Source: Mumia sp. Pv4-285
Lineage (GTDB): Bacteria > Actinomycetota > Actinomycetes > Propionibacteriales > Nocardioidaceae
DNA: 64,000 nt
Direction of reading: 5' to 3'
NCBI RefSeq assembly: GCF_041320275.1
Contig: NZ_CP162023.1
Span: 3,286,001-3,350,000, forward strand
Positions 14,638 to 44,263 of the stretch are shown in pieces. The notes below the pieces were generated by a model. The model searched no databases and was not told the origin of the DNA. It saw nothing but the letters and a program-made list of their open reading frames with translations. The position numbers and the translations under genes were made by a program. Position 1 is the first letter of the stretch; every line of letters starts with the position of its first letter.

Positions 14638-14640
14638 GCG

Positions 14641-17252: not shown

Positions 17253-17306
17253 CTCTCCATCGAATCCGCCGACAGGCCGCCGATCTCTGTCCCGTACGCG
17301 ACACCA

Positions 17307-17328
17307 GGGGTAGCGCGTGCGCTACCCC
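17307..17328. promoter_or_regulatory. Perfect 22-bp palindrome between ABC exporter and two-component genes
   Basis: GGGGTAGCGC (17307-17316) and GCGCTACCCC (17319-17328) are exact inverted repeats around GT. It lies 55 nt before the ATPase ATG and 33 nt before the kinase ATG. Placement suggests the operator of the NarL-type response regulator at 18599-19249 (inference). Confidence 0.72.
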
Positions 17329-17360
17329 GCTCGGGCTCCTCTGCGCCCTAGGGTCGAGAC

Positions 17361-21954: not shown

Positions 21955-22905
21955 TCATCCCTTCAGTGCGCCGACGGTGAGGCCCTTGGTGATCTGCTTC
22001 TGCAGGAGCGCGAATGCGAGGAGCACAGGGACGACGGTCATCATCATCCCGGCGAACAACGTCACCCAGTTCGTGCCGTAGTTCGCCGCCTGCCCGAGCT
22101 GGAACAGACCGAGGGGCAGCGTCATCTTCTCCGGGGTATGGATCAGCAGCAGCGCGTAGAAGAACTCGTTCCAGTTCTGCAAGAAGCTGATGATGGCCAC
22201 GGACGCCACCCCGGGCCCCATGAGGGGCAGGATGACGGAGAAGAAGGTACGGGTCGGAGACGCCCCATCGATCGCCGCTGCCTCTTCCAGCTCGTACGGG
22301 AGGGTCTTCATGAAGCCGGTCAGCACGAACACGTTGAACGGCAGGTTGTACGTGGCGTACACGAGGATCAGACCGATCCGGCTGTCGAGCAGGCCGAAGT
22401 CCTGCATCAGGTTGTACAACGGTGCGAACGTCACCATCCACGGGATCATCAGACCCATCAGGAAGACCGCGAGCACGACACCGCTGAAGCGGAACTGCAC
22501 TCGAGCCAGCGGGTACGCGGCGACCACCGAGACGGCGACGCCGACGGCGGTCGCGGTCAGTGTGACCACGAGGCTGTTGCCGAAGTACGCGCCGATGTTC
22601 GCCCCGCTCCAGGCGTTGGCGTAGTTCTCCCAGCGCCAGCCTTCGGCCAGCTCCCACGGCGACGTGGCAAGGAACTCGCGGTTGGTCTTCATCGAGACGT
22701 TGAAGACCCACGCGAAAGCACTCGCGGTGGAGACGACGATGCTTCCCAGGAGCAGGTAGAAGAACAGGTGGTACGTCCGGAAGGGTGCACGCGGCTCCGT
22801 GGAACCCCGGCGCCGGCGCTTGCGCCGCTGCACCGGTTCTTCGACCGCCGGTGGCGGACTCATCGGGGCGTCCTTCTGGATGACGTCAGTACTGGAGTTC
22901 GTCAC
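21955..22905 (-). CDS. Carbohydrate ABC permease, MalG-type
   Basis: This 316-residue inner-membrane permease has six predicted helices and the EAA loop ELEEAAAIDGASPTRTFFSVILPLMGPG that docks the ATPase. It has the longer hydrophilic N-terminus usual for actinobacterial MalG homologues (Pro/Arg-rich VEEPVQRRKRRRRG). It overlaps the MalF-type gene by 20 nt. No ATPase is encoded in the operon, so a shared MsmK/UgpC-type ATPase elsewhere probably energises it. Confidence 0.9.
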   Translation of the reverse strand: MTNSSTDVIQKDAPMSPPPAVEEPVQRRKRRRRGSTEPRAPFRTYHLFFYLLLGSIVVSTASAFAWVFNVSMKTNREFLATSPWELAEGWRWENYANAWSGANIGAYFGNSLVVTLTATAVGVAVSVVAAYPLARVQFRFSGVVLAVFLMGLMIPWMVTFAPLYNLMQDFGLLDSRIGLILVYATYNLPFNVFVLTGFMKTLPYELEEAAAIDGASPTRTFFSVILPLMGPGVASVAIISFLQNWNEFFYALLLIHTPEKMTLPLGLFQLGQAANYGTNWVTLFAGMMMTVVPVLLAFALLQKQITKGLTVGALKG

Positions 22906-23764
22906 GCTTCATCACCTTGTTCAGAACCTTCGCGAGAACCAGCATGAGCACGACGAGGACCACTCCCATGGCTGCCGCGTAGCCGAAGTCGGCCTGGTCG
23001 AAGGCGACCCGGTACATCAGGGTGCCGACGGTCTCGGTGGATCCGAACGGTCCACCTCCGGTCATGATGTAGATGAAGGCGAAGGCCTGGAAGCTCTGGA
23101 CCACCCAGAGCACGAGAAGCATCCGCAGCAGGTCGGCGAGCATCGGCAGCATGATGCTGAAGAGGATCCGCCCCTCACCCGCGCCGTCGATCCGCGCCGC
23201 CTCCAGCACGTCGGTCGGCAGACGCTCGAAACCTGCGCACAGCAGGACCACCCAGATCCCGATGCCGTGCCACACGGACACGAACGTCACGGCTGCAAGA
23301 GCGGTGGCAGGGTCGCCCAGCCACGTCTTCGCCAGGGCGCCGAGGCCGAGCCCCTCCAACGTGGGATTGATCAGACCGAGCGTCGGGTGGTAGAGGAACT
23401 TCCACATGATCGACACGACCGCGACCGACAGGACGACCGGCGCGAAGACGAAGAACCGGAAGAACCGCTCGCCCCGCAGCCGGTGGGACAGCGCCCACGC
23501 GATGGTGATCGCGGGCGGGAAGAGCATCAGCGCGCCGATGATCGTCAGCAGGAACGTGTTCTTGAGCGAGCTCGCGAAGTCAGGATCCCCCACGAGTCGC
23601 TCGTACTGGTCGGTGCCGACGAACGTCATCGTCCCCGTGCGGGAGAACTCGTTGAGCGAGAGATCGATCGTACGGAACAGCGGATACAAGAAGAAGAGTG
23701 CCAAGAGCGCGAACGCAGGCAGCAGGAACGGAACGATGATCCGTCGCTGTGCTTTCCTGAGCAT
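22886..23764 (-). CDS. Carbohydrate ABC permease, MalF-type
   Basis: This 292-residue permease begins MLRKAQRRIIVPFLLPAFALLALFFLYPLF, typical of UgpA/MalF proteins. Its EAA loop reads VLEAARIDGAGEGRILFSIMLPML. Together with the MalG-type protein it forms the channel of a CUT1 family importer for oligosaccharides or sugar derivatives. It is separated from the binding-protein gene by 73 nt containing a 12-bp hairpin that may reduce downstream expression. Confidence 0.9.
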   Translation of the reverse strand: MLRKAQRRIIVPFLLPAFALLALFFLYPLFRTIDLSLNEFSRTGTMTFVGTDQYERLVGDPDFASSLKNTFLLTIIGALMLFPPAITIAWALSHRLRGERFFRFFVFAPVVLSVAVVSIMWKFLYHPTLGLINPTLEGLGLGALAKTWLGDPATALAAVTFVSVWHGIGIWVVLLCAGFERLPTDVLEAARIDGAGEGRILFSIMLPMLADLLRMLLVLWVVQSFQAFAFIYIMTGGGPFGSTETVGTLMYRVAFDQADFGYAAAMGVVLVVLMLVLAKVLNKVMKRDELQY

Positions 23765-23837: not shown

Positions 23838-25184
23838 TCAGTTCCCGTAGACCCGTTTCAGGCCCTCGTCGAGCGCGGCGAGGGTCTCCTCGGCGTCCTG
23901 CTTGCCGAACATCAGCTTCGTGATCTCCGGATAGACGACCTCGTTCGCCTTCGACTGAAGGAGGCCGAAGTAGGCGGGGAAGAGCTGGTCCGCGCTACCG
24001 ACGACGTCGGCGATGCCAGGCAGACCGGGCGGACTGGGGACGTCCTTGACGGCCGAGACCTCTCCGATCTCCTCGGCGCGCGCGGTCTGGGTCTCGACGC
24101 TCGTGACACGACGGACCCATTCGAGCGCGAGCGGGATGTTCTCGCTCTCCGCATTGACCGACATGAGCTGCGCGGCGGCCATCATCCCTGCCTGGTCTCC
24201 GGTGCCGCCGTCGACCGTCGGGAAGGCGACGACGCCGAGCTCGAAGTCTGCTGGGATGACGTCCTTCATCTCGCTCACGAGCCAGCTGCCCATGAGGATC
24301 ATCCCGGCCTTCCCCTGGAAGAACTGGGCCTGAGCGGCGGTGAAGTCCGTCCCCTCGAATCCCTCGAGGAACGCGCCCTTGTCCCTCAGCTCCTCCATCT
24401 TCTCGAGGCCATCGAGGAAGCCGGGGTCGTCGGTGATGCTGCCCTTGCCCTCGATCAGCACTTCATGCGCCTTCTCGTAACCGACCGTGCGCATCCACAG
24501 GTTGTCGGTCCACATCCCCATGTAGGGCTCGAAGAGTCCCGTCACTGCGATCGGGTCGACGCCGGCCGAGGTGAGCTTGTCGGCAGCCGCCGTCAGGTCG
24601 TCCCACGTGGCCGGCGGAGCGATGCCGTTGTCCTTGAAGAGCTTCGCGTTGTAGAAGAGCACCTGCAGCGAGAGCTCGGACGGGACGCCGTAGACCTCCT
24701 TGCTCTCCGGGTGCTCCATGAACTGACGCACGGCGGGCGTGAAGGAGTCGAGCCACGGCGCGCCTGTGGTCTCGTCCTCCTGCTCCAGGTACGGCTTGAG
24801 GTCGAGGAGCTTGCCGTCGTCGGCCCATGCGAGCAACGCGTCGTTGGTGCCGTCGAACATCGTGTAGTCGACGTCGAGGCCGTCACCCGACCGCCACCGC
24901 TGCTCCAGCGCCGGGCGCGCCTCCGTGTTGGCGAACGTGAGCTTCACGTCCGTACCGGAGATGTCCTTCGCCATCGTGGCGGCGACGTCGTCCAAGAAGG
25001 CCAACGACGGTGTGCCCGTTGCCGGGAGGACGCCGACCTCGATCGGCCCTCCCTCGATCTCGCTCTGCCAGCTCGACGCCTCAGGCGCGTCGGGCTGGTC
25101 ATCTCCCCCGGAACCACATGCCGCCAGCGCCGTCATCGAGACGGCGACCGTCCCGGCGACCAACAACTTCCGCAAAGCAAACAC
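23838..25184 (-). CDS. Carbohydrate ABC substrate-binding lipoprotein
   Basis: This 448-residue protein is an extracellular solute-binding family 1 member. The lipoprotein signal begins VFALRKLLVAGTVAVSMTAL, with the lipobox LAAC and then GSGGDDQPD. The mature body has the usual GKAGMILMGSWLVSEM segment, which matches the conserved GxAAMxxxGxW motif of sugar-binding proteins. The start is GTG at 25182-25184. It belongs to the operon DapA-like lyase, binding protein, two permeases and SDR, headed by an IclR-like operator. The ligand is probably a sugar acid or oligosaccharide. Confidence 0.88.
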   Translation of the reverse strand: MFALRKLLVAGTVAVSMTALAACGSGGDDQPDAPEASSWQSEIEGGPIEVGVLPATGTPSLAFLDDVAATMAKDISGTDVKLTFANTEARPALEQRWRSGDGLDVDYTMFDGTNDALLAWADDGKLLDLKPYLEQEDETTGAPWLDSFTPAVRQFMEHPESKEVYGVPSELSLQVLFYNAKLFKDNGIAPPATWDDLTAAADKLTSAGVDPIAVTGLFEPYMGMWTDNLWMRTVGYEKAHEVLIEGKGSITDDPGFLDGLEKMEELRDKGAFLEGFEGTDFTAAQAQFFQGKAGMILMGSWLVSEMKDVIPADFELGVVAFPTVDGGTGDQAGMMAAAQLMSVNAESENIPLALEWVRRVTSVETQTARAEEIGEVSAVKDVPSPPGLPGIADVVGSADQLFPAYFGLLQSKANEVVYPEITKLMFGKQDAEETLAALDEGLKRVYGN

Positions 25185-25236: not shown

Positions 25237-26223
25237 TCAATGCCGCGGGGACAGATCTGGCAGCAGGTCCGAGAACTCCTCGAGGAAGACCTCGATCCGA
25301 CGCAGCTCTTCTGCGTCGAGCTGATGGGCCGGTCCGCGGCAGAAGTCGCTGGCGAACAGACCGCGACGGTACGAGATGCGCTTCTCGGCGGCGATGATGA
25401 GCTCGGTGTCGAGCATCCAGTACGAGATGTACGGGAGCAGGCGCCGGTGCAGGTCCTCCCCCGCCGCGACGTCGCCCGACTCGAGCAGGCTCCAGATCCG
25501 TACGTAGATCTCGGTGAACGAGCACCCGGGCTGAGTCCCGACGGCTCCGCGACGCCACGCGTCCGGAAGCTGCACGCCGGCGTATCCCTCGATCGAGGCG
25601 AGCGGAGGATCGAGCGCCGCCAGCTCTCCGATGAGACGCCCCGGCGGGCTCGACTCGACCTTGACGAGCCGGAGGTTGGGGTGAGCTGCGGCGAGGCCGG
25701 CGATGATGCCGGCATCGAGGCTCGTGCCGGTCTCCGACGGCGCGTACTGCAGCACCACCGGGGTGGGTGCGACGGCCTCGAGAACGGCGACCACGTGCTC
25801 GACGATCGCTCGCCGCGACGGCGTGAGGAGGTAGGGGGGAAGCAGGTTGATGAGGTCGGCGCCTGCGTCGACGGCCTGTCGCGCACGCTTCGCCGCGAGC
25901 ACGGTGGCGTGGTCCTGGACGGCGACGATGGCCGCGACGTCCTTGCGGGGGCCGGTGCGCCCGAGAAGGATCTCCAGGAGGCGGCTGCGCTCTCCCTCGG
26001 TCAGCTTGTAGAACTCCGACGCGAACCCGGGAAACATCATGCTGCTCACGCCGGTGCTGATCACGTGGTCGACGACTCGAGCGAACCCGATCTCGTCGAT
26101 CTCGCCCTCCTCCGTGAACGGGACCTCCAAAACCGGCGAGACGCCTGTGACGAGGGCAGCGGCGTCGCCGCTGACACCCTCCTGCACTTCGGTCGATGTC
26201 TTGGGTCCTGCGTCGATCGTCAT
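25237..26223 (-). CDS. DapA-family (dihydrodipicolinate synthase superfamily) lyase or dehydratase
   Basis: This 328-residue class I aldolase-fold enzyme has the Schiff-base lysine in NLRLVKVESSPPG at about residue 190 and the tyrosine in VLQYAPSETG at about 162. The usual GTTGE segment is replaced by FPGFASEFYKLTEGER. Relatives act on pyruvate-containing keto-deoxy sugar acids (aldolase) or deoxyglucarate (dehydratase); true lysine biosynthesis is unlikely here. The ATG at 26221-26223 has no strong ribosome site. It heads the importer operon. An IclR-like operator lies 39 nt upstream. Confidence 0.82.
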   Translation of the reverse strand: MTIDAGPKTSTEVQEGVSGDAAALVTGVSPVLEVPFTEEGEIDEIGFARVVDHVISTGVSSMMFPGFASEFYKLTEGERSRLLEILLGRTGPRKDVAAIVAVQDHATVLAAKRARQAVDAGADLINLLPPYLLTPSRRAIVEHVVAVLEAVAPTPVVLQYAPSETGTSLDAGIIAGLAAAHPNLRLVKVESSPPGRLIGELAALDPPLASIEGYAGVQLPDAWRRGAVGTQPGCSFTEIYVRIWSLLESGDVAAGEDLHRRLLPYISYWMLDTELIIAAEKRISYRRGLFASDFCRGPAHQLDAEELRRIEVFLEEFSDLLPDLSPRH

Positions 26224-26262
26224 CAGCTGTCTGCGCCCATCTCGAGTGAAGTTTCGTTATTT

Positions 26263-26276
26263 CGAAAACATTTTCG
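26263..26276. promoter_or_regulatory. IclR-like operator A (upstream of DapA-like gene)
   Basis: CGAAAA and TTTTCG form a perfect inverted repeat around CA. The flank GTTATTTCG (26256-26264) resembles GGTATTTCG at operator B (39705-39713). The 127-base gap between the divergon stop at 26351 and the gene at 26223 holds only this site and its presumed promoter. Confidence 0.6.
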
Positions 26277-26350: not shown

Positions 26351-27082
26351 TCAGCCGAGGAGCCTTGCCACGACGTTGCCGAGCACCTCGGCACGCTCTG
26401 CCGCGCTGATCGGCCACTCCGTGACCCGCCTCAGCTCGGCCTCGGGGACGGTGTAGGGAGCATCCGTCGAGAAGACCAGACGCGACGCACCGATGCCGCT
26501 GTCCTCGGCAAGGGCCGACAGGACCGTGTCCCAGGGGGCGTAGCAGGTGTCGCCGTAGAGGTTCGGGGCGTAGCGCAGGGCGGGCGCCGCGTCGATCCAG
26601 AAGTCGGTCGCACCACTACGTCCCATCACGAACGGGACTTCGGGGAAGCGCCGCGCAAGGCTGGCGAGCGGTAGCGGGAGTGCGTTCGGCGGCGTCCCTG
26701 TCCGGACGTAGACGAACCAGCCTTCGTCCCCAGCGAGCTCGATGAGCGGGTCGAGGAGCCCATCGAGCAGGTCGAAGCCTTGAAGGACGCTGTCGACGCA
26801 CAGCGCTCGCGCACCGGCGTCTCGAGCGCGTCGCAGCTCGTCGACCGCTGCCGCCCCTCGCCACGGATTGGCGACCGCATACGGGATCAGCCGCCCCTCG
26901 GACGCCCGGGCTGCCGCGACGACCCGCTCGTTGCCCTCGCGGTTGTCGACGGCGATGCACCGCTCGTCCGGTGCGACCAGTGCCCGGTCGATCCCGAGGC
27001 GATCCATGGAGGAGAGGAGGTCGTCGCGTTCGAGCACGACTTCTCGACCGCGACCGAGCCGGACGTGCGCGTCGATGATCAT
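26351..27082 (-). CDS. Degenerate amidohydrolase (PF04909-like) with His-to-Arg ligand changes
   Basis: This 243-residue protein aligns by eye with the amidohydrolase at 29060-29821, but the metal ligands are changed. The HxH of strand 1 reads DAHVRLG, the LSHDGTPP histidine is arginine in VYVRTGTPP, and the GHGG histidine is arginine in VMGRSGATD; only the late aspartate (FSTDAPYT) is kept. It is therefore unlikely to be a metal-dependent hydrolase and may bind an anionic ligand or act as a partner subunit (inference). ATG at 27082 overlaps the previous stop (ATGA). It is the last gene of the five-gene operon. Confidence 0.78.
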   Translation of the reverse strand: MIIDAHVRLGRGREVVLERDDLLSSMDRLGIDRALVAPDERCIAVDNREGNERVVAAARASEGRLIPYAVANPWRGAAAVDELRRARDAGARALCVDSVLQGFDLLDGLLDPLIELAGDEGWFVYVRTGTPPNALPLPLASLARRFPEVPFVMGRSGATDFWIDAAPALRYAPNLYGDTCYAPWDTVLSALAEDSGIGASRLVFSTDAPYTVPEAELRRVTEWPISAAERAEVLGNVVARLLG

Positions 27083-27960
27083 GCCGGCGCGCCGACGCTC
27101 AGTCCGAGCGCGGACAGCGCGTCGGCGTGGATGATTCCCTCGATGAGCTCGCCCGGAACCCTCGGCAACGCCGTCCCCTCGAGGATCGAGTTCACGGCAC
27201 GTAGACCGGCGATCGCTTCTCCGGTGTTGGCGATGGGGAAGTCGGATCCGAGCAGCAGCTTGTGCGTGCATCCCCACTCGACGGCCGCGAGCAGCGACTC
27301 GTAGCAGACCCACGGGCGCAGGTAGATCGACGACACGTCGGCGTACACGTGCGGGTGCTTCCGGATCGTCACGACCGTCTCCTTGCCCCACGGGTGCCCC
27401 ATGTGGGCCATCACGATCCTCAGCTCGGGAAACCGCAGCGCGACCTCGTCGGTCACCAACGGATACGTGTAGCGCAGCGGCGCGGCGCGGATCGGCGAAG
27501 CACCCTGGTGGAAGACGATCGGGAGGGCGTTCCGCTCGCAGTAGCCGTAGAAGGCGAGCGCCTCGTCGCCGAGCGGGTCGAAGTTCTGATAGTTCGGCCC
27601 CAGCTTGACGCCCACGAGACCGAGCTCGCGGCACCGCTCGGCCTCGTCGAACGCGTCGGGCTCCGTCGGATCCACCGACATGAACCCGATCCGCCGGGAA
27701 GGATCGTGTGCGACGAACTCTGCCGTGGCGTCGTTCGTCCGCTCGGGGGGATGCGGGATGCCGGTCGCGGCCGCCGGGTCGGGCACGGCGATGTTGAAGA
27801 CGATCGTGACGTCAGCGGCATCCATCGCGGTGTCGAAGTCCGCCCAGGAGTTCGTCGTGACCACGGGGCGATCCGTACGCCAGGTCGTGAACACCTGGCG
27901 TTCGGCGTCCGGCACGGCATCCCGGTGCGTGGGTGTGTGGGCGTGGACGTCGACGATCAT
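27079..27960 (-). CDS. Amidohydrolase family 2 metal-dependent hydrolase
   Basis: This 293-residue TIM-barrel protein keeps the full ligand set of PF04909 enzymes: HAH in VDVHAHTPTH, His in IVFHQGASP, His in MAHMGHPWG and Asp in LGSDFPIAN. Known relatives hydrolyse sugar lactones or pyrone-dicarboxylate lactone, or decarboxylate hydroxybenzoates. In this setting a lactone or cyclic amide opening is the natural guess. It is translationally coupled to the enolase-family gene before it (stop 27957) and to the degenerate paralogue after it by ATGA overlaps. Confidence 0.82.
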   Translation of the reverse strand: MIVDVHAHTPTHRDAVPDAERQVFTTWRTDRPVVTTNSWADFDTAMDAADVTIVFNIAVPDPAAATGIPHPPERTNDATAEFVAHDPSRRIGFMSVDPTEPDAFDEAERCRELGLVGVKLGPNYQNFDPLGDEALAFYGYCERNALPIVFHQGASPIRAAPLRYTYPLVTDEVALRFPELRIVMAHMGHPWGKETVVTIRKHPHVYADVSSIYLRPWVCYESLLAAVEWGCTHKLLLGSDFPIANTGEAIAGLRAVNSILEGTALPRVPGELIEGIIHADALSALGLSVGAPA

Positions 27961-29063
27961 CGGAGCTCCTCGATCAGGTCAGGTCGTGGGCGGACACCGA
28001 GGCCGGGGCCGGCGCCCAGCCGGACCGTGCGGCCGTCGGTGTCGAGCGGGGCGGCGAGCACGTCCTCGCGGTAGTAGAAGGCGCCGATGACGTCTGACGG
28101 GATGCTCGACGACAACCGTGGGAGAGCGCACGCGACGTGCAGCTGCGCCGCAGCCCCGAGACCGAACTCACCGTTCGAGCCGATCACCACGTCGAGACCG
28201 AACTCGGCCGCGACACTCCCCATCGCGAACGCACGTCCCGGCCCTCCGCTCTTGCCGACGTAGAGGCTCACGCAGTCCGCGGCATCAGCGCGGACCAACC
28301 GCGTGAGGTCCGCCATCCCGAAGACCGCTTCGTCGGCGATCACCGGGAGACCGTACCTGCGGGCGGCGGCGAGGCCTTCGAGGTCGTCGGGGTCGACGGG
28401 CTGCTCGATGAAAGCCGCGCCGGCCGAGGCGATCAGCGGGATCGCGCGCGCAGCATCCGTCCGGCTCCATCCGCCGTTCGCATCAGCTCCCACGAACACG
28501 TCGGGGCCGACCACGTCTCGTACGTGCCGCACGCGCTCGACGTCACCGTCGACCCCCAGACCCACCTTCACCTTGAAGGCGTCGAAACCGAGTCGTCGCG
28601 CTGCGGCGACCATCGGGGGGAGAGCGTCTCCGTCTCCCGACAGCGAGAGCTTGATGTCGACGACGTCGCGCCGGGGACCCCCGAGCGCGACCGCGAGCGG
28701 GACGTCGAGCGTCCGCGCGTAGGCGTCCCAGAGCGCTGTGGAGACGCCGGCCTTCGTGAAGGGATTCCGCGCGAGCACGCGGTCCATCACGTCCTCGAGA
28801 TCGGCCACAGGGGCGATCGGACGTCCGATGATCGCCGGCGCCAGCAGGGTGCGTACGAAGTGCTCGGCGGTGGTGCCGTCCTCACCGCTCCACAACGGCG
28901 TCGCGCTCACCTCGCCAAAACCCTCGACCCCGTCGCTCGTCACGATCCGGACCAGGAGGAAGTCGGACCTGGCATGCACGCCGCGCGCACCGCGCACGAC
29001 GAGGTCGGGGTTCACTTCGAGCGTCATCGGTGCCGTGTGGACGGCGGCGACGGTCGCTCTCAT
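27957..29063 (-). CDS. Enolase-superfamily enzyme, MLE subgroup (cycloisomerase/epimerase type)
   Basis: This 368-residue protein has the capping domain (RATVAAVHTAPM, LLVRIVTSDGVEGFGEVS) and barrel residues of the muconate-lactonising subgroup: the KxK lysines in AFKVKVG, metal ligands in VGADANGGWS, FIEQPV and IADEAVFG, and the second acid/base lysine in LYVGKSGG. The sequence SNGEFGLGAAAQLH follows. MLE-group enzymes abstract the proton alpha to a carboxylate in cycloisomerisation, dehydration or epimerisation. The reaction here is unknown. I chose ATG at 29061-29063, which overlaps the upstream stop; the longer frame runs into that gene. Confidence 0.84.
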   Translation of the reverse strand: MRATVAAVHTAPMTLEVNPDLVVRGARGVHARSDFLLVRIVTSDGVEGFGEVSATPLWSGEDGTTAEHFVRTLLAPAIIGRPIAPVADLEDVMDRVLARNPFTKAGVSTALWDAYARTLDVPLAVALGGPRRDVVDIKLSLSGDGDALPPMVAAARRLGFDAFKVKVGLGVDGDVERVRHVRDVVGPDVFVGADANGGWSRTDAARAIPLIASAGAAFIEQPVDPDDLEGLAAARRYGLPVIADEAVFGMADLTRLVRADAADCVSLYVGKSGGPGRAFAMGSVAAEFGLDVVIGSNGEFGLGAAAQLHVACALPRLSSSIPSDVIGAFYYREDVLAAPLDTDGRTVRLGAGPGLGVRPRPDLIEELR

Positions 29064-29821
29064 CGCGGACCGGCGAGGAGCGCGCGAGGGTTGTCGACGA
29101 GCATCGCGTGGCGTTGCGCGGGCGTGATGCCCCACCCGTCGATCTCTTGGACCCGAGCGACCGCGTAGTCCTGGCTGGTGCGGTCGGAGAGACCGGCGTC
29201 GGTGCCGAAGAGCACCTTGTGCGGTGGTGCTGCAGCAAGGATGGCGCGTGCCGCGTACGGCGGGGTGCCGCAGATGCAGAGGTAGAGGTTCTCCGTCTCC
29301 ACCACCGCCGCGAGCGCCTCACGCCACGTGTCGTGCAGACCTCCGTGCCCGAGGACGACCTGGAGCGTCGGATGACGGCGCGCGAGCGCGGCGATCTGGG
29401 TGGCAGTCGAGTACGGCGGGGTGCCGTCGTGGCTGAGCAGGATGCCGCCCGCCCCCGCGAGCACCTCGCAGACCGGGTCGAGGCCGGCCTCGTGCATGCT
29501 GAACCCCTGCAACCAAGGATGGAGCTTGAGCCCGCGGAGACCGAGCGGCCCCATCATCCGCTCCACCTCCGCTGCAGCACCATCGAGTCGGGGATGGACG
29601 GTGCCGAAACCGAGCAGCCGGTCGGGATGCTCACCGACGAACGCCGCAAGATCGTCGTTCGTCGTCGGCGAGGGGTCGAACAGGCCGTCATGGCTGAGGA
29701 CGACGGCTTGTTCGATCCCCGCCCCGTCCATGAATGCGACGAAGTCGTCGACCCCGAAGGCGACCCCTCCCAGCCAGCTGGTGGTACGCCAGGACGGCGT
29801 GTGGGTGTGGAAGTCGATCAC
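29060..29821 (-). CDS. Amidohydrolase family 2 metal-dependent hydrolase
   Basis: This 253-residue hydrolase starts at GTG 29819-29821 (VIDFHTHTPSW), overlapping the creatininase-family stop as GTGA. Metal ligands are complete: HTH in strand 1, His in LLSHDGTPPY, His in VLGHGGLHDTW and Asp in FGTDAGLSD. It is the closest visible relative of the degenerate protein at 26351-27082. The longer open frame with ATG at 29944 lies inside the creatininase-family gene. Two intact amidohydrolases in one operon suggest two successive hydrolytic ring or ester openings, or different specificities. Confidence 0.82.
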   Translation of the reverse strand: MIDFHTHTPSWRTTSWLGGVAFGVDDFVAFMDGAGIEQAVVLSHDGLFDPSPTTNDDLAAFVGEHPDRLLGFGTVHPRLDGAAAEVERMMGPLGLRGLKLHPWLQGFSMHEAGLDPVCEVLAGAGGILLSHDGTPPYSTATQIAALARRHPTLQVVLGHGGLHDTWREALAAVVETENLYLCICGTPPYAARAILAAAPPHKVLFGTDAGLSDRTSQDYAVARVQEIDGWGITPAQRHAMLVDNPRALLAGPR

Positions 29822-30567
29822 AGCGCCTCGGCCAGCTCGATGAAACGGTCGGCCGCTCGCGCCACGAGGTGGTCGAGCCGACTCCGTCCGGCCACCGCCT
29901 CCGCCTTGGCAGGCTCGTCGGTGTAGCCGTCGATCGCCTGCCACAGCGCGGGCGTGTGGACGCCCACGTCCTCGACCGCCAGGACCGCAGGACTCGTCGA
30001 CCGCGCCTCCGGGACGGTTGTCGTCTCAGGGTGGAGCGCCAGCATCAAGGACGTCTCGAACTCGCCCGCGTGCCCTGGGGCGAAGACGTCGTCCTCCCGA
30101 GGAGCCAGCCGCCAGTAGTCGAGGTGGGCCACGGCGAGTCCGAGGGACGATGCGGCGTCGGCGGCTGCCGCCTGGCAGATACCGACGTTCCCACCGTGGC
30201 CGTTGACCACGACCACGCGTCGACCGCCCTGTGCCGCGACCGATCCGAACACGTCGCCGAGGAGGGCGAGGAGCGTCGCCGGCTTCAGCGAGAGCGTCCC
30301 GCCGAACGGCAGATGGTGGCCCGAGACTCCGTAGCCGATCGTCGGCGCGACGAGGAGAGTGCGGCTCGACCGCTGGGCCGCGGCCTGCGAGCCCTGCCAG
30401 GCGACCGCTTCCGCCAGGAAGGCGTCCGTGCCCGTGGCCAGATGAGGTCCGTGCTGCTCGGTCGCCCCGACGGGGACGACGACCAGCGCGTCCGGCAACC
30501 AGCGTCCGAGGGCCTCGCGACCAGACTGCGACCAGAGTGCGGCGACTGAACCCACACCGACCTCCAT
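29818..30567 (-). CDS. Creatininase-family amidohydrolase
   Basis: This 249-residue protein has the creatininase metal motifs VPVGATEQHGPHLATGTD, HHLPFGGTLSL and VVNGHGGNVG, and the later acidic segment HAGEFETSLML. The family hydrolyses cyclic or linear amides (creatinine, formamide intermediates) and includes the mycofactocin peptidase MftE, but no mft genes lie here. The ATG at 30565-30567 has no good ribosome site and lies only 11 nt from an IclR-like palindrome, so a leaderless mRNA is possible. It heads the five-gene operon running to 26351. Confidence 0.84.
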   Translation of the reverse strand: MEVGVGSVAALWSQSGREALGRWLPDALVVVPVGATEQHGPHLATGTDAFLAEAVAWQGSQAAAQRSSRTLLVAPTIGYGVSGHHLPFGGTLSLKPATLLALLGDVFGSVAAQGGRRVVVVNGHGGNVGICQAAAADAASSLGLAVAHLDYWRLAPREDDVFAPGHAGEFETSLMLALHPETTTVPEARSTSPAVLAVEDVGVHTPALWQAIDGYTDEPAKAEAVAGRSRLDHLVARAADRFIELAEAL

Positions 30568-30578
30568 GCTCGAAATAC

Positions 30579-30593
30579 CGGAAATGATTTCCG
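30579..30593. promoter_or_regulatory. IclR-like operator C (upstream of creatininase operon)
   Basis: CGGAAAT-G-ATTTCCG is a perfect 15-bp palindrome. From memory its core matches the E. coli IclR consensus TGGAAATNATTTCCA. It sits in the 37-nt gap between the iclR-family stop (30605) and the creatininase-family ATG (30567). Confidence 0.8.
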
Positions 30594-30604: not shown

Positions 30605-31426
30605 TTACGAGACCGGAACCGCCCTTGGCAACGATTCGGCGGGACATCCAAGGCGCCGTGAGACCTCGGTCGTCAGACCGACCAGCCCCGTGGCGGCGTC
30701 CCGCATGCGATCCGGTGTGAGGTCACGCGCGAAGCCCGTCACACCCAACGCCCCGGCGACGTGGCCGTCGATCCCGAAGAACGGGGCGGCCACGCATGAG
30801 ATCTCGGCCTGCTCCTCTTCCTCCTCCATCGCATAGCCGTGCTGGCGCACGTCCTCGAGGAGCGAGAGGAAGGCCTTGCGCCCGCCCTTCGGCGCATTGG
30901 GGCCGCGGCCCGGCGTCAGCCTCGACAACAGCGGCTCGAGCTCGTCGGGGTCGAGGTACGCGGCGATGGCGCGGCCCAGGGCCGTGAGGTTGAAGGGAGC
31001 AATCTTGCCGGAGTAGGTGTCGAACTGGACGAATCCTGGCGTCGCGGCCTTGGCGACGTACACCACCGAGTGTCCGTCGAGAACCCCCATGTGCACGGGC
31101 ATGCCGAGCTTGTCGGCGAGCATCCTCATCTCACTCGTCGCCACCCTCGAGAGGTCCGCGTCGCGGACCAGCTGGCTCGCGAGCCCGTACAGCCGCAGCG
31201 TCGGGCGCCAGAAGTGGCTGCGCCCGACCACGCGCCGCGTGGCGTACCCGCGCTGCTCGAGCGTGTAGACGATGCTCGCGCAGGTCGCCAGCGGGATGTT
31301 GGTCACCTTGGCGAGGGCCGTGAGCGTGAGCTCCTCCTCGGCCTCGACCAGGTGCTCGAGAACCGTGAGAGCCCGGTCAACCCCAGGGGACGCCGGCCGA
31401 TCTCCCGCCTTGCTGCGATCATCCAT
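30605..31426 (-). CDS. IclR-family transcriptional regulator
   Basis: This 273-residue protein has an N-terminal winged helix (GVDRALTVLEHLVEAEEELTLTALAKVTNIPLATCASIVYTLEQRGYATR) and a C-terminal IclR effector domain with the usual FNLTALGRAIAAYL and ISCVAAPFFGIDGHVAGALGVTG segments. The ATG at 31426 follows AAAGG. It is divergent from the KDPG-aldolase/kinase pair and directly precedes the creatininase operon on the same strand. IclR-like palindromes occur before four transcription units of this region, so it is probably their common regulator, most likely a repressor released by a pathway acid. Confidence 0.9.
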   Translation of the reverse strand: MDDRSKAGDRPASPGVDRALTVLEHLVEAEEELTLTALAKVTNIPLATCASIVYTLEQRGYATRRVVGRSHFWRPTLRLYGLASQLVRDADLSRVATSEMRMLADKLGMPVHMGVLDGHSVVYVAKAATPGFVQFDTYSGKIAPFNLTALGRAIAAYLDPDELEPLLSRLTPGRGPNAPKGGRKAFLSLLEDVRQHGYAMEEEEEQAEISCVAAPFFGIDGHVAGALGVTGFARDLTPDRMRDAATGLVGLTTEVSRRLGCPAESLPRAVPVS

Positions 31427-31522
31427 GGGTCAACCTTTGCCTCTCGTCGCCGTTGCCGGTGCATCGTTGCAGTGGGCAGAATGGTGAAACGTCGCCGCCC
31501 GGGCCTAGACTATTCTATATCT

Positions 31523-31537
31523 CGAATGTGTCTTCAC
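31523..31537. promoter_or_regulatory. Possible IclR-like operator D (upstream of aldolase/kinase)
   Basis: CGAATGTGTCTTCAC matches operator B (CGGAAATGTCTTCCG) at 10 of 15 positions. It lies in the divergent gap between iclR and the aldolase, just downstream of a TATTCT/TATATC-rich segment that could be the -10 region. It is the weakest of the four sites. Confidence 0.4.
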
Positions 31538-31559
31538 AATGCCGAAGAAAGGTCTGCGT

Positions 31560-32204
31560 GTGGCGAGTCTCCCGGTCTCGGGCCCAAGCATCACCGGTGT
31601 CGTAGCAATCGTCCGCCTTCGCGGCACGGCTGCCCCCGACGCTCTCGTCGACGCGCTCGTCGACGGCGGTGTCACCTTCCTCGAGGTCACCGCAACGACA
31701 CCCGGCGCATGCGCCACGATCGAGCGCTGGCGCCGACGACGACCCGAGGCCAGGGTCGGCATGGGGACCGTCCGGACGCCCGACGACGCGCGCGCTGCGA
31801 TCTCGGCGGGTGCCCACTTCCTCGTGACGCCGACGACCGTCCCCGGCGTCCTCGCCGTCGCCGGCGAGCACGGTGTCCCCGTGGCCTGCGGCGCGCTCAC
31901 CCCCACAGAGATCGACCAGGCGTGGCGTCTCGGCGCCGACGTCGTCAAGGTCTTCCCGGTCGCGAGCGTCGGTGGCCCGGACTACCTCCGCGCCGTGCGC
32001 GACCCTCTCCCGGAGGTCCCGCTCCTGCCCACAGGCGGTGTCGACCGCGGCAACATCCGGGCCTACGCGTCGGCGGGAGCAGTCGGCGTCGGTGTCGGAA
32101 GCTCTCTCGTCAGTGAACACGCGGTCGTCGGGGAGCACTGGGACGACCTCCGGGCACGCGCGCGGTCGTTCGTCGACGCCTGGAAGGAGACCGCTGATGC
32201 CTGA
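31560..32204 (+). CDS. KDPG/KHG-type 2-keto-3-deoxy-phosphosugar aldolase
   Basis: This 214-residue class I aldolase has the glutamate in FLEVTATTPGA, the loop VGMGTVRTPDDA and the Schiff-base lysine in DVVKVFPVASVGGPDYLRAV, then LPTGGVDRGNIRAY. It would cleave a 2-keto-3-deoxy-6-phospho-sugar acid to pyruvate and a phosphorylated aldehyde. I prefer GTG at 31560 with GAAAGG about 7 nt upstream, giving the normal family length; ATG at 31539 is the alternative. The kinase gene overlaps its end by 8 nt, giving a kinase-aldolase pair as in the Entner-Doudoroff branch for sugar acids. Confidence 0.88.
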   Translation: MASLPVSGPSITGVVAIVRLRGTAAPDALVDALVDGGVTFLEVTATTPGACATIERWRRRRPEARVGMGTVRTPDDARAAISAGAHFLVTPTTVPGVLAVAGEHGVPVACGALTPTEIDQAWRLGADVVKVFPVASVGGPDYLRAVRDPLPEVPLLPTGGVDRGNIRAYASAGAVGVGVGSSLVSEHAVVGEHWDDLRARARSFVDAWKETADA

Positions 32205-33138
32205 GGTGCTGACGCTCGGTGAAGCGATGGGCTGCCTCCGCAGCGCCGGACGGGTGAACCTCGGGGACGCGGTGAGTCTGGGCGTCGCAGGTGCCGAGAG
32301 CAACGTCGCGATCGGGCTGGCTCGCCTGGGGCACGCGTGCCGGTGGGTCGGAGCCGTCGGGCCCGACCAGATCGGGGAGCTCGTCGTTCGTACGCTCACG
32401 GCGGAGGGCGTCGACGTCTCGTGCGTCCGCCGCAGGCCCGAACCGACCGGCATCGTCGTCTTCGAGGAACGACTCGGCGGCCTGACGCGGGTCGACTACC
32501 ACCGGCGCCACTCGGCCGGGAGCATGGTCTCTGTCGAGGACGTGACCGCTGCGTTCGCCGACGATGCTCCGCAGATCGTCCACCTCACGGGGCTCACGAT
32601 GGCTCTCAGCCCCGCAGCGGCGGACGCGGTCCGCGCCGCCGCACGTCAGGCCCGCGACCACGGCGCCCTGGTGTCTCTCGACGTCAACCACCGCAGTCGT
32701 CTGTGGTCGGCCGAGGATGCTCGATCGGCGTTGGCGACCCTGGCAGGCTTGGCCGACGTCGTCATCGCGTCCGAGGACGAGCTGCCGCTCGTCGCGACCG
32801 CAGAGTCGCTCGCCGACCAGGCCGCGCAACTGCTCGAGCACGGCGCGCGCACCGTCGTGGTGAAGCACGGCGCGGAGGGCGCAACCTCGTACTCGACCGA
32901 CGGAGTCATGCACTCCCCCGCTCGTCGGGTGAGCGTCGTCGACACCGTCGGCGCGGGAGACGCGTTCGTGGCCGGCTACCTGTCGGGCGTGCTCGACGGG
33001 CTGTCCGAGACTGCCCGTCTCCTTCGCGCCAACACCGTCGGCGCCTTCGCGGTGGGCTCCCGCGGCGACTGGGAAGGGCTTCCTACCAGGGAGGAGCTCC
33101 CCCTGCTCGACGTGGCGCCCGGCGAGGCCGTGCGGTGA
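32197..33138 (+). CDS. PfkB-family sugar kinase, probable 2-keto-3-deoxy-sugar-acid kinase
   Basis: This 313-residue ribokinase-fold enzyme starts MPEVLTLGEAMGCLRSAGRVNLGDAVSLGVAGAESNVAIGLARLG, has the substrate segment YHRRHSAGS and ends in the PfkB signature VDTVGAGDAFVAGYLSG with the catalytic aspartate near residue 254. The RxxSAGS segment resembles KDG kinases. The ATG at 32197 has GGAAGGAG upstream and overlaps the aldolase stop. Phosphorylation of a keto-deoxy acid for the aldolase before it is the likely role. Confidence 0.85.
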   Translation: MPEVLTLGEAMGCLRSAGRVNLGDAVSLGVAGAESNVAIGLARLGHACRWVGAVGPDQIGELVVRTLTAEGVDVSCVRRRPEPTGIVVFEERLGGLTRVDYHRRHSAGSMVSVEDVTAAFADDAPQIVHLTGLTMALSPAAADAVRAAARQARDHGALVSLDVNHRSRLWSAEDARSALATLAGLADVVIASEDELPLVATAESLADQAAQLLEHGARTVVVKHGAEGATSYSTDGVMHSPARRVSVVDTVGAGDAFVAGYLSGVLDGLSETARLLRANTVGAFAVGSRGDWEGLPTREELPLLDVAPGEAVR

Positions 33139-33175: not shown

Positions 33176-33595
33176 TCACACTGCGGGCGGCCCGCAGCCC
33201 TTCACCGCCATCACGTCGATCTCCACCAGGATCCCGCCGAGCTCCGATCCCGCCGTCGTCCGCACGGGCAGGGGCTCGGTGAAGAACTCGCGGTACGCCG
33301 CGTCGAACGCGTCCCAGTCACGCTCGACGTCCGCCAGGTGTGCGGTGACCTTCACCGTGTCCTGCAGGTCCGCACCGGAAGCGGCGAGGGCGGCGGCGAC
33401 GTTGCGCAGCGTCTGACGCGTCTGCTCTGCCACGTCGTCACCTCCGACGAGCTCGCGCGTCACCGGATCGACCGGCCCGAAGCCGGCGGTGACGACGAGA
33501 TCGCCGACCACCACCGCCTGCGAGTACCAGCCTCGGGGCGCAGGGGCCTGCGCCGTGCTGACGCTCTCCTTCTTGTGCCGGCTCATGGCCGTCAC
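33176..33595 (-). CDS. RidA/YjgF-family protein
   Basis: This 139-residue protein has the RidA core: YSQAVVVGDLVVTAGFGPVDP, AEQTRQTLRNVAAALAASGADLQDTVKVTAHLADV, FDAAYREFF and a late LGGILVEIDVMAVKG. The arginine that binds the carboxylate in deaminating RidA (normally in PVRTT) is present in PLPVRTTAGS. The family deaminates reactive enamines or imines. GTG at 33595 overlaps the previous stop (GTGA); ATG at 33586 is an alternative. Its position at the end of an operon of exported proteins is unusual, since RidA is cytoplasmic. Confidence 0.82.
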   Translation of the reverse strand: MTAMSRHKKESVSTAQAPAPRGWYSQAVVVGDLVVTAGFGPVDPVTRELVGGDDVAEQTRQTLRNVAAALAASGADLQDTVKVTAHLADVERDWDAFDAAYREFFTEPLPVRTTAGSELGGILVEIDVMAVKGCGPPAV

Positions 33596-35439
33596 ATCCC
33601 GAACGAGATCGCGGACTCGAAACCGTTTCCGCCGAAGCGGCGCGGCGCCGTCCAGGGGTTGCTGGCGGTCGCGCCGTTGCCTGGATGGATCCAGACCGAC
33701 CCCGAGGAGTCACGTACGACGAGGTCAGGGTGGCCCGTCCCGTCGACGTGGGCGACGTCGAGCGACGTCACACCGGACCAGTCGCCGTCGATGGTGATCG
33801 GGTCTCCGGTCGCGGTCGGGAAGACCCACAGCGAGCCGTCGTTCTCGAGATCGACCAGGTCGGCATACCCGTCGTCGTCGAAGTCGTGGAGCGCGAGCTG
33901 CGAGGCCTGCTGCCAGTTGCTGCCGACCCACACTCGCGGGTCCCAGGGGAAGCTCGTCGTCGAGCCGTTGCCCGGGTAGGCGTAGAGGTCACCGCCCGGC
34001 TGCCGTCCGACGAGGTCCGACTTGCCGTCGCCTGTCACGTCACCCGCGAGGATCATGTCGAAGATGTTCCATCCGGTGCCGGCGAAGTACCGGCTCGGCC
34101 ACGGGTTCCCGGTCGCCGCACCGTTGTGGAGATAGATCCACAGCGTGCCGTTGGCCGCCGCGCGGTCGAGGACGAGGAGATCCTGACGGCCGTCGCCGTT
34201 CACGTCGTCGACGAGGATCCGAGAGGCGAATCCCCACTCGGTGCCGGCGGCGCGCAAGGTGGTCCAAGGGTTGCCCGACGTCGACCCGTTGTTCGGAAGG
34301 ACGAACAAGCTCTGTCCGGTCCCGAGGCGTGCTGCCAGCTCGGGCCGCCCGTCACCGTCGACGTCGCCCACGAGGATCCCGGTCGCATAGGTGAACCCGC
34401 TGCCTGCCGGGAAGCTGGTCGACGGCGACCACATGCTGCCCGGTGTGGTGCCGAGGCTGGGGTGGACCCGGAGCGTCCCCGACTCCGTGCGCGCGATGAT
34501 GTCCGGCCTGCCGTCCGCGGTGACGTCGGCGAGCTCGAGCCGGTCACCCAGTCCGAAGCCGGTCACGCCGGTGACGATCGACGTCCAGAAGTTCGACGTC
34601 GTCGCTCCGTTGTGCGGATACACGAGGATGTTGCCGCTGCCGTCGCGCGCGACGATGTCGGGGTTGCCGTCACCCGTCGCGTCGCCGAGCATCAGGGCGT
34701 TCGCGAGGTTCCAGCCGGTGCCCGACCAGATCGGCGACTGCGTCCACGGGTTCGACGTCGTCGAGCCGTTGCCGCGGTAGACCCAAAGCGTCCCGCCCGA
34801 GTTGGATGGATCGCGGACGAGAAGGTCGGCAGACCCGTCGCCGGTGACGTCTCCGACCCGGATCGTGTCGGCCAGGTTCCATCCCGTCCCCGCGTGGACC
34901 CGTGTGGTCCACGGATCGGCTGGGTCGCCGTTGTTGGGATAGATCCACAGGGTCCCCCCGTCGGCACCAGGGTCGCGGACGATCAGGTCGTCCTTCGCAT
35001 CTCCCGTGACGTCGGCGAGGACCGCGAGGTCGGCGAACTCCCATCGTGTGGCCGTCGTCCGGTAGGTCTCCTCCCACGGGTTGGACGTCGTCGACCCGGT
35101 GGTGTCGTAGATGCGGATCGCCCCGGCGTCGGCGGCGGACATCTGCGCGACGAGGTCGGCGCGGCCATCACCGGTGACATCCGGAGGAAGGGCGCTCGCC
35201 GCGAGCGAGCGCGCGGTGTTCTCGCCGGCCGCTGCCGACGGCGTACGCGGTGCCTTCTTGTTCGTCCCTCGCTCGAGGAGACGATCGGCGTTCCACGTCG
35301 GCTCGGCCTTCTTGTGGTGGCGGACCTTGTCGCGTCCGTCGCGTGGCGTGGCGCTCGCCTCGGCGGCGTGCGTGCCCGAGAGCCCGACGACTAGCGCGGT
35401 CGCGAGCACGCCGGTGCGCGTGAGTGACTTCTGGGACAT
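33592..35439 (-). CDS. Secreted FG-GAP/VCBS beta-propeller protein
   Basis: This 615-residue protein has a signal peptide (MSQKSLTRTGVLATALVVGLSGTHAAEASA) and a short basic linker. About ten repeats of roughly 50 residues follow, each opening with a calcium-loop motif such as DVTGDGRADL, DVTGDGSADL, DVDGDGRPEL or DFDDDGYADL, and most contain a TLWIYxxNG...NPW element. I find no catalytic domain. The repeats probably form one or two propellers that bind carbohydrate or protein outside the cell. The ATG at 35439 overlaps the upstream stop by one base (TGATG). It belongs to the exported operon led by the GH43-like gene. Confidence 0.85.
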   Translation of the reverse strand: MSQKSLTRTGVLATALVVGLSGTHAAEASATPRDGRDKVRHHKKAEPTWNADRLLERGTNKKAPRTPSAAAGENTARSLAASALPPDVTGDGRADLVAQMSAADAGAIRIYDTTGSTTSNPWEETYRTTATRWEFADLAVLADVTGDAKDDLIVRDPGADGGTLWIYPNNGDPADPWTTRVHAGTGWNLADTIRVGDVTGDGSADLLVRDPSNSGGTLWVYRGNGSTTSNPWTQSPIWSGTGWNLANALMLGDATGDGNPDIVARDGSGNILVYPHNGATTSNFWTSIVTGVTGFGLGDRLELADVTADGRPDIIARTESGTLRVHPSLGTTPGSMWSPSTSFPAGSGFTYATGILVGDVDGDGRPELAARLGTGQSLFVLPNNGSTSGNPWTTLRAAGTEWGFASRILVDDVNGDGRQDLLVLDRAAANGTLWIYLHNGAATGNPWPSRYFAGTGWNIFDMILAGDVTGDGKSDLVGRQPGGDLYAYPGNGSTTSFPWDPRVWVGSNWQQASQLALHDFDDDGYADLVDLENDGSLWVFPTATGDPITIDGDWSGVTSLDVAHVDGTGHPDLVVRDSSGSVWIHPGNGATASNPWTAPRRFGGNGFESAISFGM

Positions 35440-39679: not shown

Positions 39680-39711
39680 GACAGCTCCCTCAGCGCAATG
39701 TTTCGGTATTT

Positions 39712-39726
39712 CGGAAATGTCTTCCG
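39712..39726. promoter_or_regulatory. IclR-like operator B (upstream of exported glycosidase operon)
   Basis: CGGAAAT-G-TCTTCCG pairs at 5 of 7 arm positions and shares CGGAAATG..TTCCGAT with operator C. It lies between the GH43-like start (39679) and the divergent methyltransferase (39794). Confidence 0.68.
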
Positions 39727-41923: not shown

Positions 41924-41986
41924 GCATTCCCCACTCGTGATCGACGCTGCTCTTCACACCATCGCAGCGAGAGAGGGTCTGCTGGA

Positions 41987-42003
41987 TCACCCGTAGCGGG
42001 TGA
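41987..42003. promoter_or_regulatory. 17-bp palindrome copy 2 (TCACCCG-TAG-CGGGTGA)
   Basis: This perfect 7-bp-arm palindrome lies in the 97-base gap between the amphi-Trp stop (42021) and the DUF1254 start (41923). Copies occur at 13450-13466 and 47448-47464. Here it could also act as a short terminator of the amphi-Trp transcript. Confidence 0.65.
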
Positions 42004-42020
42004 ACGGGCGCCCTGCGGGC

Positions 42021-42239: not shown

Positions 42240-42256
42240 GTCGTCTCCTGTGGTGG

Positions 42257-43336: not shown

Positions 43337-43375
43337 GGTGTCAGCCTCCTGGGCACGGCGTTGCAGGACGAGTCA

Positions 43376-44236: not shown

Positions 44237-44263
44237 GATGCTGCCTCTCTGTGGTGACGCCAT

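Follow-up and report, generated by a model that had tools for sequence, protein, structure and literature searches.

The DNA analysed here is a 64,000-nucleotide window from the 4.65 Mb single-contig genome of Mumia sp. Pv4-285 (NZ_CP162023.1, positions 3,286,001 to 3,350,000). Its main subject is a minus-strand operon of five genes encoding a creatininase-family protein (CRE), an Amidohydro_2 protein (AH1), an enolase-superfamily protein of the muconate lactonizing enzyme subgroup (MLE), a second Amidohydro_2 protein (AH2) and a pseudo-amidohydrolase (AH3). Along the minus strand, from 31426 down to 21138, the genes encode an IclR-family regulator, CRE, AH1, MLE, AH2, AH3, a DapA-family lyase, the binding protein and permeases 1 and 2 of a sugar ATP-binding cassette (ABC) importer, and a short-chain dehydrogenase/reductase (SDR). 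Four units carry an operator-like motif: IclR with the divergent pair of 2-keto-3-deoxy-6-phosphogluconate (KDPG) aldolase (Eda) and 2-keto-3-deoxygluconate (KDG) kinase-like genes; CRE-AH1-MLE-AH2-AH3; DapA with the sugar importer and SDR; and a glycoside hydrolase family 43 (GH43) gene with those for an 819-amino-acid (819-aa) protein, an FG-GAP protein and RidA (Table 1).

The junctions within the operon read GTGA, ATGA, ATGA and ATGA, giving four 4-base overlaps among five genes, and identical overlaps occur in Mumia xiangluensis (locus L106), the nearest named relative in our AH2 scan (AH2 identity 95%). The five-gene set is not a product of chance, because L106 keeps the overlaps and all five genes were present in 17 of the 25 core loci described below. 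A sequence-only reading of this DNA had called five overlapping genes of these families; the gene positions held, and the families were upheld by Pfam. The start of CRE is ambiguous, as GTG 30555 has GGAGG upstream and ATG 30567 nearly abuts an operator-like site; translation may start at the GTG instead of the ATG.

Named genomes were scanned with an AH2 alignment, the best 80 loci (numbered with the prefix L) were taken, and the 25 with an AH2 identity of at least 68% were treated as core loci. Gene presence in these was scored by tblastn at 40% identity or above, since a simple gene caller missed or mis-started many genes. CRE was present in 23 of 25 core loci, AH1 in 19, MLE in 24, AH3 in 18, DapA in 21 and IclR in 21, and AH2 was the best conserved gene of the set. 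The core loci span 14 genera (Mumia, Sinosporangium, Dactylosporangium, Jiangella, Kribbella, Amycolatopsis, Nakamurella, Micromonospora, Actinoallomurus, Nonomuraea, Actinocatenispora, Actinopolymorpha, Pseudonocardia and Conexibacter). The five genes are contiguous and in the same order in nine loci; elsewhere MLE has moved, genes have been inserted or the order is scrambled. Five Amycolatopsis loci hold only CRE, AH2, DapA and MLE together with IclR, L126 is without CRE, and L118 is cut by a contig end. The sequence-only reading had proposed a search for the gene order in other actinomycetes and would have been undone by a scattering of the genes in relatives. The set was found in many genera, and where it is rearranged or reduced the genes that are kept stay clustered.

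The remaining 55 of the 80 loci have AH2 relatives of 41-61% identity, mostly without the set; CRE and/or MLE relatives occur among them in L132-L134, L137, L139 and L151, and weak MLE relatives in L150, L182 and L185. Within the genus Mumia, AH2 was found in two of six genomes, the window's own included; the set is therefore patchy and may have been acquired horizontally. Transfer by plasmid was considered and rejected, as AH3 had no match in 72,556 plasmid records. A Gfo/Idh/MocA-type oxidoreductase gene adjoins the cluster in at least 13 of the 25 other loci, in 11 of them directly before CRE; this count comes from the gene caller and is a lower bound, with Pfam applied to one member and the rest assigned by clustering. 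Another family is found next to the cluster in five of the 25 loci (L126:12948-14399, L118:4844-6397, L122:3089-4498, L123:2342-4519 and L125:8382-9926); its L118 member had no Pfam match and its L126 member no NCBIfam match.

The regions upstream of CRE and DapA share the motif TTYCGRWATNNCGA in the window and in L106-L110. This strict pattern has three matches in the whole 4.65 Mb genome, all in the window, before DapA, CRE and GH43, and the GH43 match is independent in that the site was not used for deriving the pattern. With one mismatch allowed, the window contains five matches (at three places), whereas 100 shuffles averaged 0.73 and always gave fewer than five. In the 25 core loci the strict pattern gave 14 matches and the reversed pattern gave none; 13 of the 14 lie in L106-L110 and one in L115. 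Sites that played no part in the derivation precede the 819-aa protein gene in L109 and L110 and a binding protein gene in L115; others lie at the Gfo gene of L109 and L110 and within an over-long open reading frame (ORF) of L108.

A 15-base weight matrix was built from nine 15-mers of L107-L110 letters only. All seven of its window hits scoring at least 12 fall at four promoters (26252, 31512, 39701 and 30569), and its top score of 26.0 compares to 16.7 for the best of 30 column-permuted matrices. A related matrix, trained on sites of the window and L106-L110, was applied to the 20 loci outside L106-L110, where it found 59 distinct sites (85 counting both strands) as against 4-27 distinct sites for 12 permuted matrices; four earlier permuted matrices gave 10, 7, 17 and 11 raw hits in these loci. 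Of the 59 sites, 36 are no more than 200 bases from the start of a cluster or candidate gene; they come from 16 of the 20 loci, and the genes concerned are Gfo, CRE, DapA, IclR and transporter genes. The five minimal Amycolatopsis loci have sites at CRE and at the gene for a major facilitator superfamily (MFS) carrier beside a flavin adenine dinucleotide (FAD) oxidase gene. We infer that the IclR-family protein would bind the shared sites, and shared regulation of one catabolic pathway is likely. The Kribbella antibiotica locus (L112) is syntenic with K. sandramycini and has operator-like matches before AH2.

CRE scores 184.4 bits against the creatininase family PF02633 (gathering score 31.3), and its EQHG, D, NGHGGN and GHAG-FE motifs, whose residues are metal ligands in this family, are at or near invariance in 24 sequences. 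When compared to NCBIfam equivalog cut-offs, CRE fell short of a true creatininase (98 versus 235 bits), MftE (116 versus 172) and IolN (56 versus 245). The MLE subgroup is defined by a KxK motif, three acidic metal ligands and a lysine opposite; K164, K166, D194, E220, D244 and K271 of the window's MLE align with the corresponding residues of muconate lactonizing enzyme 3i4k. As a muconate/chloromuconate cycloisomerase, MLE reached 188 bits against a TIGR02534 cut-off of 335. Both AH1 and AH2 have the Pfam score and the HxH...H...H...D pattern of Amidohydro_2 enzymes, and AH1 residues H5, H7, K99, H101, H131, H159 and D208 are invariant in all 18 aligned sequences (of 20 available). The nearest solved structures to AH1 and AH2 are 5-carboxyvanillate decarboxylase (LigW) and alpha-amino-beta-carboxymuconate-epsilon-semialdehyde (ACMS) decarboxylases, or unassigned proteins; the two therefore need not be hydrolases, and their sequences would be compatible with lactonase, isomerase, hydratase or decarboxylase chemistry. 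By alignment, the predicted catalytic ligands are conserved in CRE, AH1, AH2 and MLE and replaced in AH3. Among the remaining proteins, DapA has YagE and L-2-keto-3-deoxyarabonate dehydratase as its closest solved relatives, Eda exceeds the KDPG aldolase cut-off of TIGR01182 (172.3 versus 156.05 bits), the PfkB kinase has KDG/2-keto-3-deoxygalactonate kinase as its best NCBIfam match, below cut-off, and RidA scores 93 bits against TIGR00004, below the cut-off of 106.

AH3 is a paralogue of AH1 (~30% identity), with LQGF, GTPP and G--G--D-W blocks in common. In all 17 aligned AH3 sequences H7, H101, H131 and H159 of AH1 are replaced by R8, D97, R127 and R/K155 (14 R, 3 K), and H6 and D207 of the metal site are retained; this alignment left out L110 and L115, and R8, D97 and R127 are invariant in all 19 available sequences. 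The site thus reads H6-x-R8, D97, R127, R/K155, D207 in place of HxH...H...H...D, and AH3 was rejected as a catalytic metal-dependent amidohydrolase; metal chemistry is probably absent. The label of pseudo-amidohydrolase in the sequence-only reading was apt, as four of the five metal-site histidines of AH1 are replaced, by Arg, Asp, Arg and Arg/Lys. Across 29 relatives in the phylum's other genomes (the loci listed, out of 41 matching genomes among 296), Arg never occupies position 8, 127 or 155; 21 of the 29 have all six ligand-type residues and eight differ. Other Amidohydro_2 relatives in L025, L027 and L028 have lost several metal ligands in a different way (DAYNN and DGLAM motifs), and the ligand-poor gene of L028 also stands in tandem with an AH1-like gene. 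A further tandem of AH3-like and AH1-like genes (L094:12514-13988, genome G125), in which the AH3-like gene retains the metal ligands, is possibly an intact ancestor-type pair.

AH1 and AH3 also occur together. A whole-genome search of 13 genomes chosen from the 25 found seven with both AH1 (55-79%) and AH3 (61-78%) and six with neither ortholog, two of the six having weak AH1-like hits at 35 and 39%; the other 12 of the 25 have both genes in the locus by tblastn. These absences fall in one Amycolatopsis group and a single Kribbella species and therefore probably represent at least two independent events. The predicted AH3 model (predicted local distance difference test, pLDDT, 92.7) has its closest folds in the amidohydrolase superfamily, among them ACMS decarboxylase (ACMSD), 5-carboxyvanillate decarboxylase, LigJ and pyrone-dicarboxylate hydrolase 4d8l. 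In the available text of two reports, ACMSD must dimerise to be active, since the neighbouring subunit supplies an Arg (PMC9021598, PMC11650718). This precedent, taken with the pairing and fold of AH3, is why we propose AH3 as a metal-free partner that would complete the AH1 active site, and we give about an even chance to AH3 being such a non-catalytic partner.

We lean towards a reading in which the operon supplies the intracellular core of a catabolic regulon that IclR controls and whose substrate is a cyclic compound derived from carbohydrate. Sugar-acid chemistry is probable, and the exact order of steps given here is doubtful. The secreted GH43 and (alpha/alpha)6 proteins would release a sugar, which the ABC importer would take up and the SDR (elsewhere the Gfo/Idh/MocA-type enzyme) would oxidise to a lactone or keto form. 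AH1 would open or rearrange the oxidised product, aided by AH3, a partner subunit without metal that would contribute arginines in the manner of ACMSD dimers. MLE would then form a 2-keto-3-deoxy acid, either by syn elimination or by a cycloisomerisation that opens the ring. CRE and AH2 would cover the remaining hydrolytic, decarboxylative or C-C cleavage steps, and DapA and/or the kinase with the aldolase would release pyruvate and a small aldehyde. CRE, AH2, MLE and DapA would be the core that turns the acid into 2-keto-3-deoxy intermediates and then cleaves these. Sugar release, uptake and the dehydrogenase with AH1/AH3 look like a replaceable front end, because the minimal Amycolatopsis loci are without dehydrogenase, AH1 and AH3 but have an MFS carrier and an FAD oxidase. 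Neither an SDR nor a Gfo dehydrogenase was found in the stretches of these five loci examined. The MFS carrier and berberine-type FAD oxidase genes, with operator-like hits at their common promoter (L116, L117, L119, L121 and L164, about 14450-17430; identity by Pfam on L116 only), apparently replace the front end in the five Amycolatopsis.

The sequence-only reading is partly supported. It placed the linked set in a sugar-catabolic setting, which agrees with the common operator-like motif at the genes for the KDG-kinase-like protein, KDPG aldolase and DapA-type enzyme, and it knew of no pathway using the set; we likewise saw no description of the gene set among the titles and abstract openings listed from open-licence papers. 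Its stepwise hydrolysis of an amide-bearing sugar did not fare as well, given that AH1 and AH2 are nearest to decarboxylases or unassigned proteins and AH3 is probably without metal chemistry; the only pointers to a nitrogenous substrate are the creatininase family name and the RidA gene. The present analysis adds to that reading a division into a modular core and front end, as well as three features it had not mentioned: the operator motif common to the four units, the operon with the secreted glycosidase, and the conserved pairing of AH1 with AH3.

Several observations weigh against a catabolic regulon of this kind. With respect to the motif, reversing the strict pattern also yields three matches in the genome, which makes the short pattern weak by itself, and beyond L106-L110 the forward pattern matches in just one of 20 loci; the regulon claim is therefore carried by the longer, looser model. 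In the matrix test three places stand out, while the CRE site (15.0) lies within the permuted maxima and is not significant alone. The training sites were picked with a pattern derived in part from the window's CRE and DapA sites; these two are therefore not independent, and the GH43 and IclR/aldolase sites are the independent ones. In L114, L125, L128 and L135 no site was counted close to the start of a gene. With respect to gene content, the set is reduced in L112 to AH2, DapA and IclR, and DapA, IclR or CRE is missing from L125, L126, L128 and L135. The aldolase is beside the cluster only in L106-L108 (Mumia, Sinosporangium and Dactylosporangium), and the KDG-kinase-like gene in these and, at 42%, in L120. 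With respect to chemistry, AH1 and AH2 resemble decarboxylases and not characterised sugar lactonases among solved structures. A Weimberg-type end needs an aldehyde dehydrogenase, and the one in the window (61655-63151) is ~22 kb beyond GH43 and has no operator-like site scoring at least 12. The link between AH1 and AH3, a predicted heteromer, is one of genomic co-occurrence only.

Other substrates would account for some of these features. If the substrate were a carbocycle (inositol or a cyclitol), a dehydrogenase would form a cyclic ketone or beta-diketone, CRE would open the ring by C-C hydrolysis like IolN, and MLE, DapA and the aldolase would finish the route. CRE does have a weak IolN match (56 bits), inositol 2-dehydrogenase is the best NCBIfam model for the alternative dehydrogenase found in 13 loci (66 bits versus a cut-off of 355, for one member), and the PfkB kinase also matches IolC (169 versus 300 bits). 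However, all three matches are far below cut-off, nothing like IolE or IolD appeared in the Pfam scan of 50 window ORFs (no dedicated search was made), and the secreted glycosidases and CUT1-type importer suit glycosides better, which leaves a carbocycle unlikely. A nitrogenous substrate (a lactam, amino-sugar or hydroxyproline-like compound), on which CRE would act as a cyclic amidase while RidA clears enamines from MLE, is less probable still. The creatininase family of CRE, the RidA gene in the GH43 operon and the second-best NCBIfam model of MLE, cis-3-hydroxyproline dehydratase (132 bits, cut-off 500), speak for it, but RidA is nearby only in L106, L108, L124 and, more weakly, L128, the Pfam scan of 50 window ORFs found no deaminase or aminotransferase besides RidA, and the Amidase-family gene at 57220-58794 is far from the cluster. 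An aromatic-acid pathway of the muconate or meta-cleavage type, with a PcaR-like IclR, a muconate cycloisomerase and LigW/ACMSD-type decarboxylases, is barely credible and was rejected. The best NCBIfam matches of IclR (PcaR/PcaU/PobR, 113 bits) and MLE (muconate cycloisomerase, 188 bits) are of this kind and AH1 is near LigW, yet both matches fall far short of the respective cut-offs of 285 and 335, the Pfam scan of 50 window ORFs turned up neither a ring-cleaving dioxygenase nor a muconolactone isomerase family, and it is the sugar importer, GH43, KDG-kinase-like protein and aldolase that carry the operator motif.

AH3 could itself be a real enzyme of metal-independent chemistry whose arginines bind a carboxylate. 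The invariant residues of AH3 line the former ligand positions, LigI is a metal-independent member of the amidohydrolase superfamily, and 4d8l is among the AH3 fold matches. We consider such an enzyme somewhat unlikely, as the joint presence of AH3 with AH1 and their paralogy fit a partner better, and metal enzymes make up most of its nearest solved folds. The carbohydrate reading could also extend further, to an undescribed route for a glycan sugar in which an amidohydrolase is obligately paired with an Arg-substituted, metal-less paralogue, the CRE fold opens a sugar ring and the 819-aa protein is a new glycoside-active enzyme; we hold this only tentatively, at less than even chances.

On the glycan side, the genes for GH43, the 819-aa protein, the FG-GAP protein and RidA form a tightly spaced minus-strand unit from 39679 to 33176. 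GH43 hints weakly at arabinose- or xylose-containing glycans. The model of the 819-aa protein is of low confidence (pLDDT 56), and its Foldseek matches to glycosidases and phosphorylases of families GH65, GH94, GH116, GH92 and GH63 are only a hint; a sequence search of the PDB yielded nothing useful for this protein. Its kin, with 49-94% identity, lie beside the cluster in L106:32-2446, L107:2033-4495, L108:2110-4647, L109:2346-4853 and L110:2367-4856, and L114 has two copies of a relative, one of them partial. Elsewhere in the window, a gene for an alkyl sulfatase-type enzyme (19327-21126) adjoins the SDR gene, and 40481-47832 encodes a molybdopterin oxidoreductase, an enoyl-CoA hydratase, and DyP-like and DUF4331 proteins. 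A separate uptake-and-hydrolysis cluster (50227-58794) comprises a PucR-type regulator, an Opp-type ABC transporter and the Amidase-family gene, and is followed by the aldehyde dehydrogenase gene.

Table 1. Positions of the genes and operator-like sites in the window.
Feature	Position	Strand	Evidence or remark
Permease 2, sugar ABC importer	21955..22905	-	Pfam
SDR dehydrogenase	21138..21950	-	Pfam
Permease 1, sugar ABC importer (UgpA-like)	22886..23764	-	Pfam; NCBIfam below cut-off
Binding protein, sugar ABC importer	23838..25184	-	Pfam SBP_bac_1
DapA-family lyase, 2-keto-3-deoxy acid aldolase or dehydratase type	25237..26223	-	Pfam DHDPS
Operator-like site before DapA	26252..26267		Matrix score 26.0
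AH3, Arg-substituted pseudo-amidohydrolase, AH1 paralogue	26351..27082	-	Pfam Amidohydro_2 70 bits
AH2, Amidohydro_2	27079..27960	-	Pfam 109 bits; alignment
MLE, enolase superfamily, MLE subgroup	27957..29063	-	Pfam MR_MLE N 62 bits, C 168 bits
AH1, Amidohydro_2, metal-ligand set complete	29060..29821	-	Pfam 112 bits
CRE, creatininase-family metal hydrolase	29818..30567	-	Pfam Creatininase 184 bits
Operator-like site before CRE	30569..30583	-	Matrix score 15.0, within permuted-control range
IclR-family regulator	30605..31426	-	Pfam IclR_C and HTH_IclR; 37 bases upstream of CRE
Operator-like site between IclR and Eda	31512..31527		Matrix score 21.5; strict pattern does not match
Eda, KDPG/2-keto-4-hydroxyglutarate (KHG) aldolase, divergent from IclR	31539..32204	+	NCBIfam TIGR01182
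PfkB kinase, KDG-kinase-like	32197..33138	+	Pfam PfkB; 8-base overlap with Eda
RidA-family protein	33176..33595	-	NCBIfam TIGR00004; 4-base overlap with FG-GAP gene
FG-GAP repeat protein, signal-like N-terminus	33592..35439	-	Pfam; start corrected from longer ORF
Secreted 819-aa protein, probable (alpha/alpha)6 glycoside-active enzyme, no Pfam family	35439..37898	-	Low-confidence model, Foldseek
Secreted GH43 with FG-GAP repeats	37943..39679	-	Pfam; signal-like N-terminus; first gene of operon
Operator-like site before GH43	39701..39716		Matrix score 20.4; 23 bases upstream of GH43

The candidate regulon joins a glycan-side operon to an intracellular enzyme set that recurs in 14 actinobacterial genera, and it offers functions open to genetic testing for orphan families, namely a creatininase-family enzyme, two amidohydrolases, an MLE-subgroup enzyme and a secreted (alpha/alpha)6 protein. 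If true, the AH1/AH3 pair would clearly exemplify, for the amidohydrolase superfamily, a pseudoenzyme retained as partner to an active site. ACMSD, of the same fold group, requires an Arg from the neighbouring subunit but, in the available text, is a homodimer of active subunits (PMC9021598, PMC11650718), whereas the window encodes an active-looking AH1 and an Arg-substituted paralogue. We know of no CRE or AH genes in the Streptomyces 3,6-anhydro-L-galactose route (SCO3486/SCO3480). As far as its description could be consulted, this route likewise begins with an oxidation in an actinobacterium, after which an enolase-superfamily enzyme opens the ring to give a 2-keto-3-deoxy sugar acid, but it uses an aldehyde dehydrogenase in place of the SDR/Gfo enzyme; the active site of SCO3480 includes Asp270 and His297, whereas the window's MLE aligns K271, of the muconate-lactonizing type (PMC9706016). 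Non-phosphorylative fucose and rhamnose catabolism in SAR202 is similar in that enolase-superfamily dehydratases are paired with dehydrogenases, although the parts of the paper available name COG3836 aldolases, unlike the window (PMC10444878). One SAR202 genome (L175) has a 42% relative of AH2, near which CRE and AH3 relatives were not seen.

The closest likeness in logic is to an Agrobacterium route. Udh is a dehydrogenase, Gci an enolase-superfamily cycloisomerase and KdgD a DapA-type dehydratase. With Gli they make up the oxidative galacturonate route in the available account (PMC6353982), and the window resembles that route in bringing together a dehydrogenase, an amidohydrolase-superfamily enzyme, an enolase-superfamily cycloisomerase and a DapA-type dehydratase. 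Close relatives of Gci and KdgD were sought in the window and not found: MLE matches 4ggb, which we take to be Gci, at 73 bits, behind more than 40 other chains, and DapA reaches 52 bits against a KdgD cut-off of 374. The window also adds CRE, a second amidohydrolase, AH3, a KDG-kinase-like protein and an aldolase. By analogy, the proposed pathway would work in the manner of the Udh/Gli/Gci/KdgD route without being a member of it.

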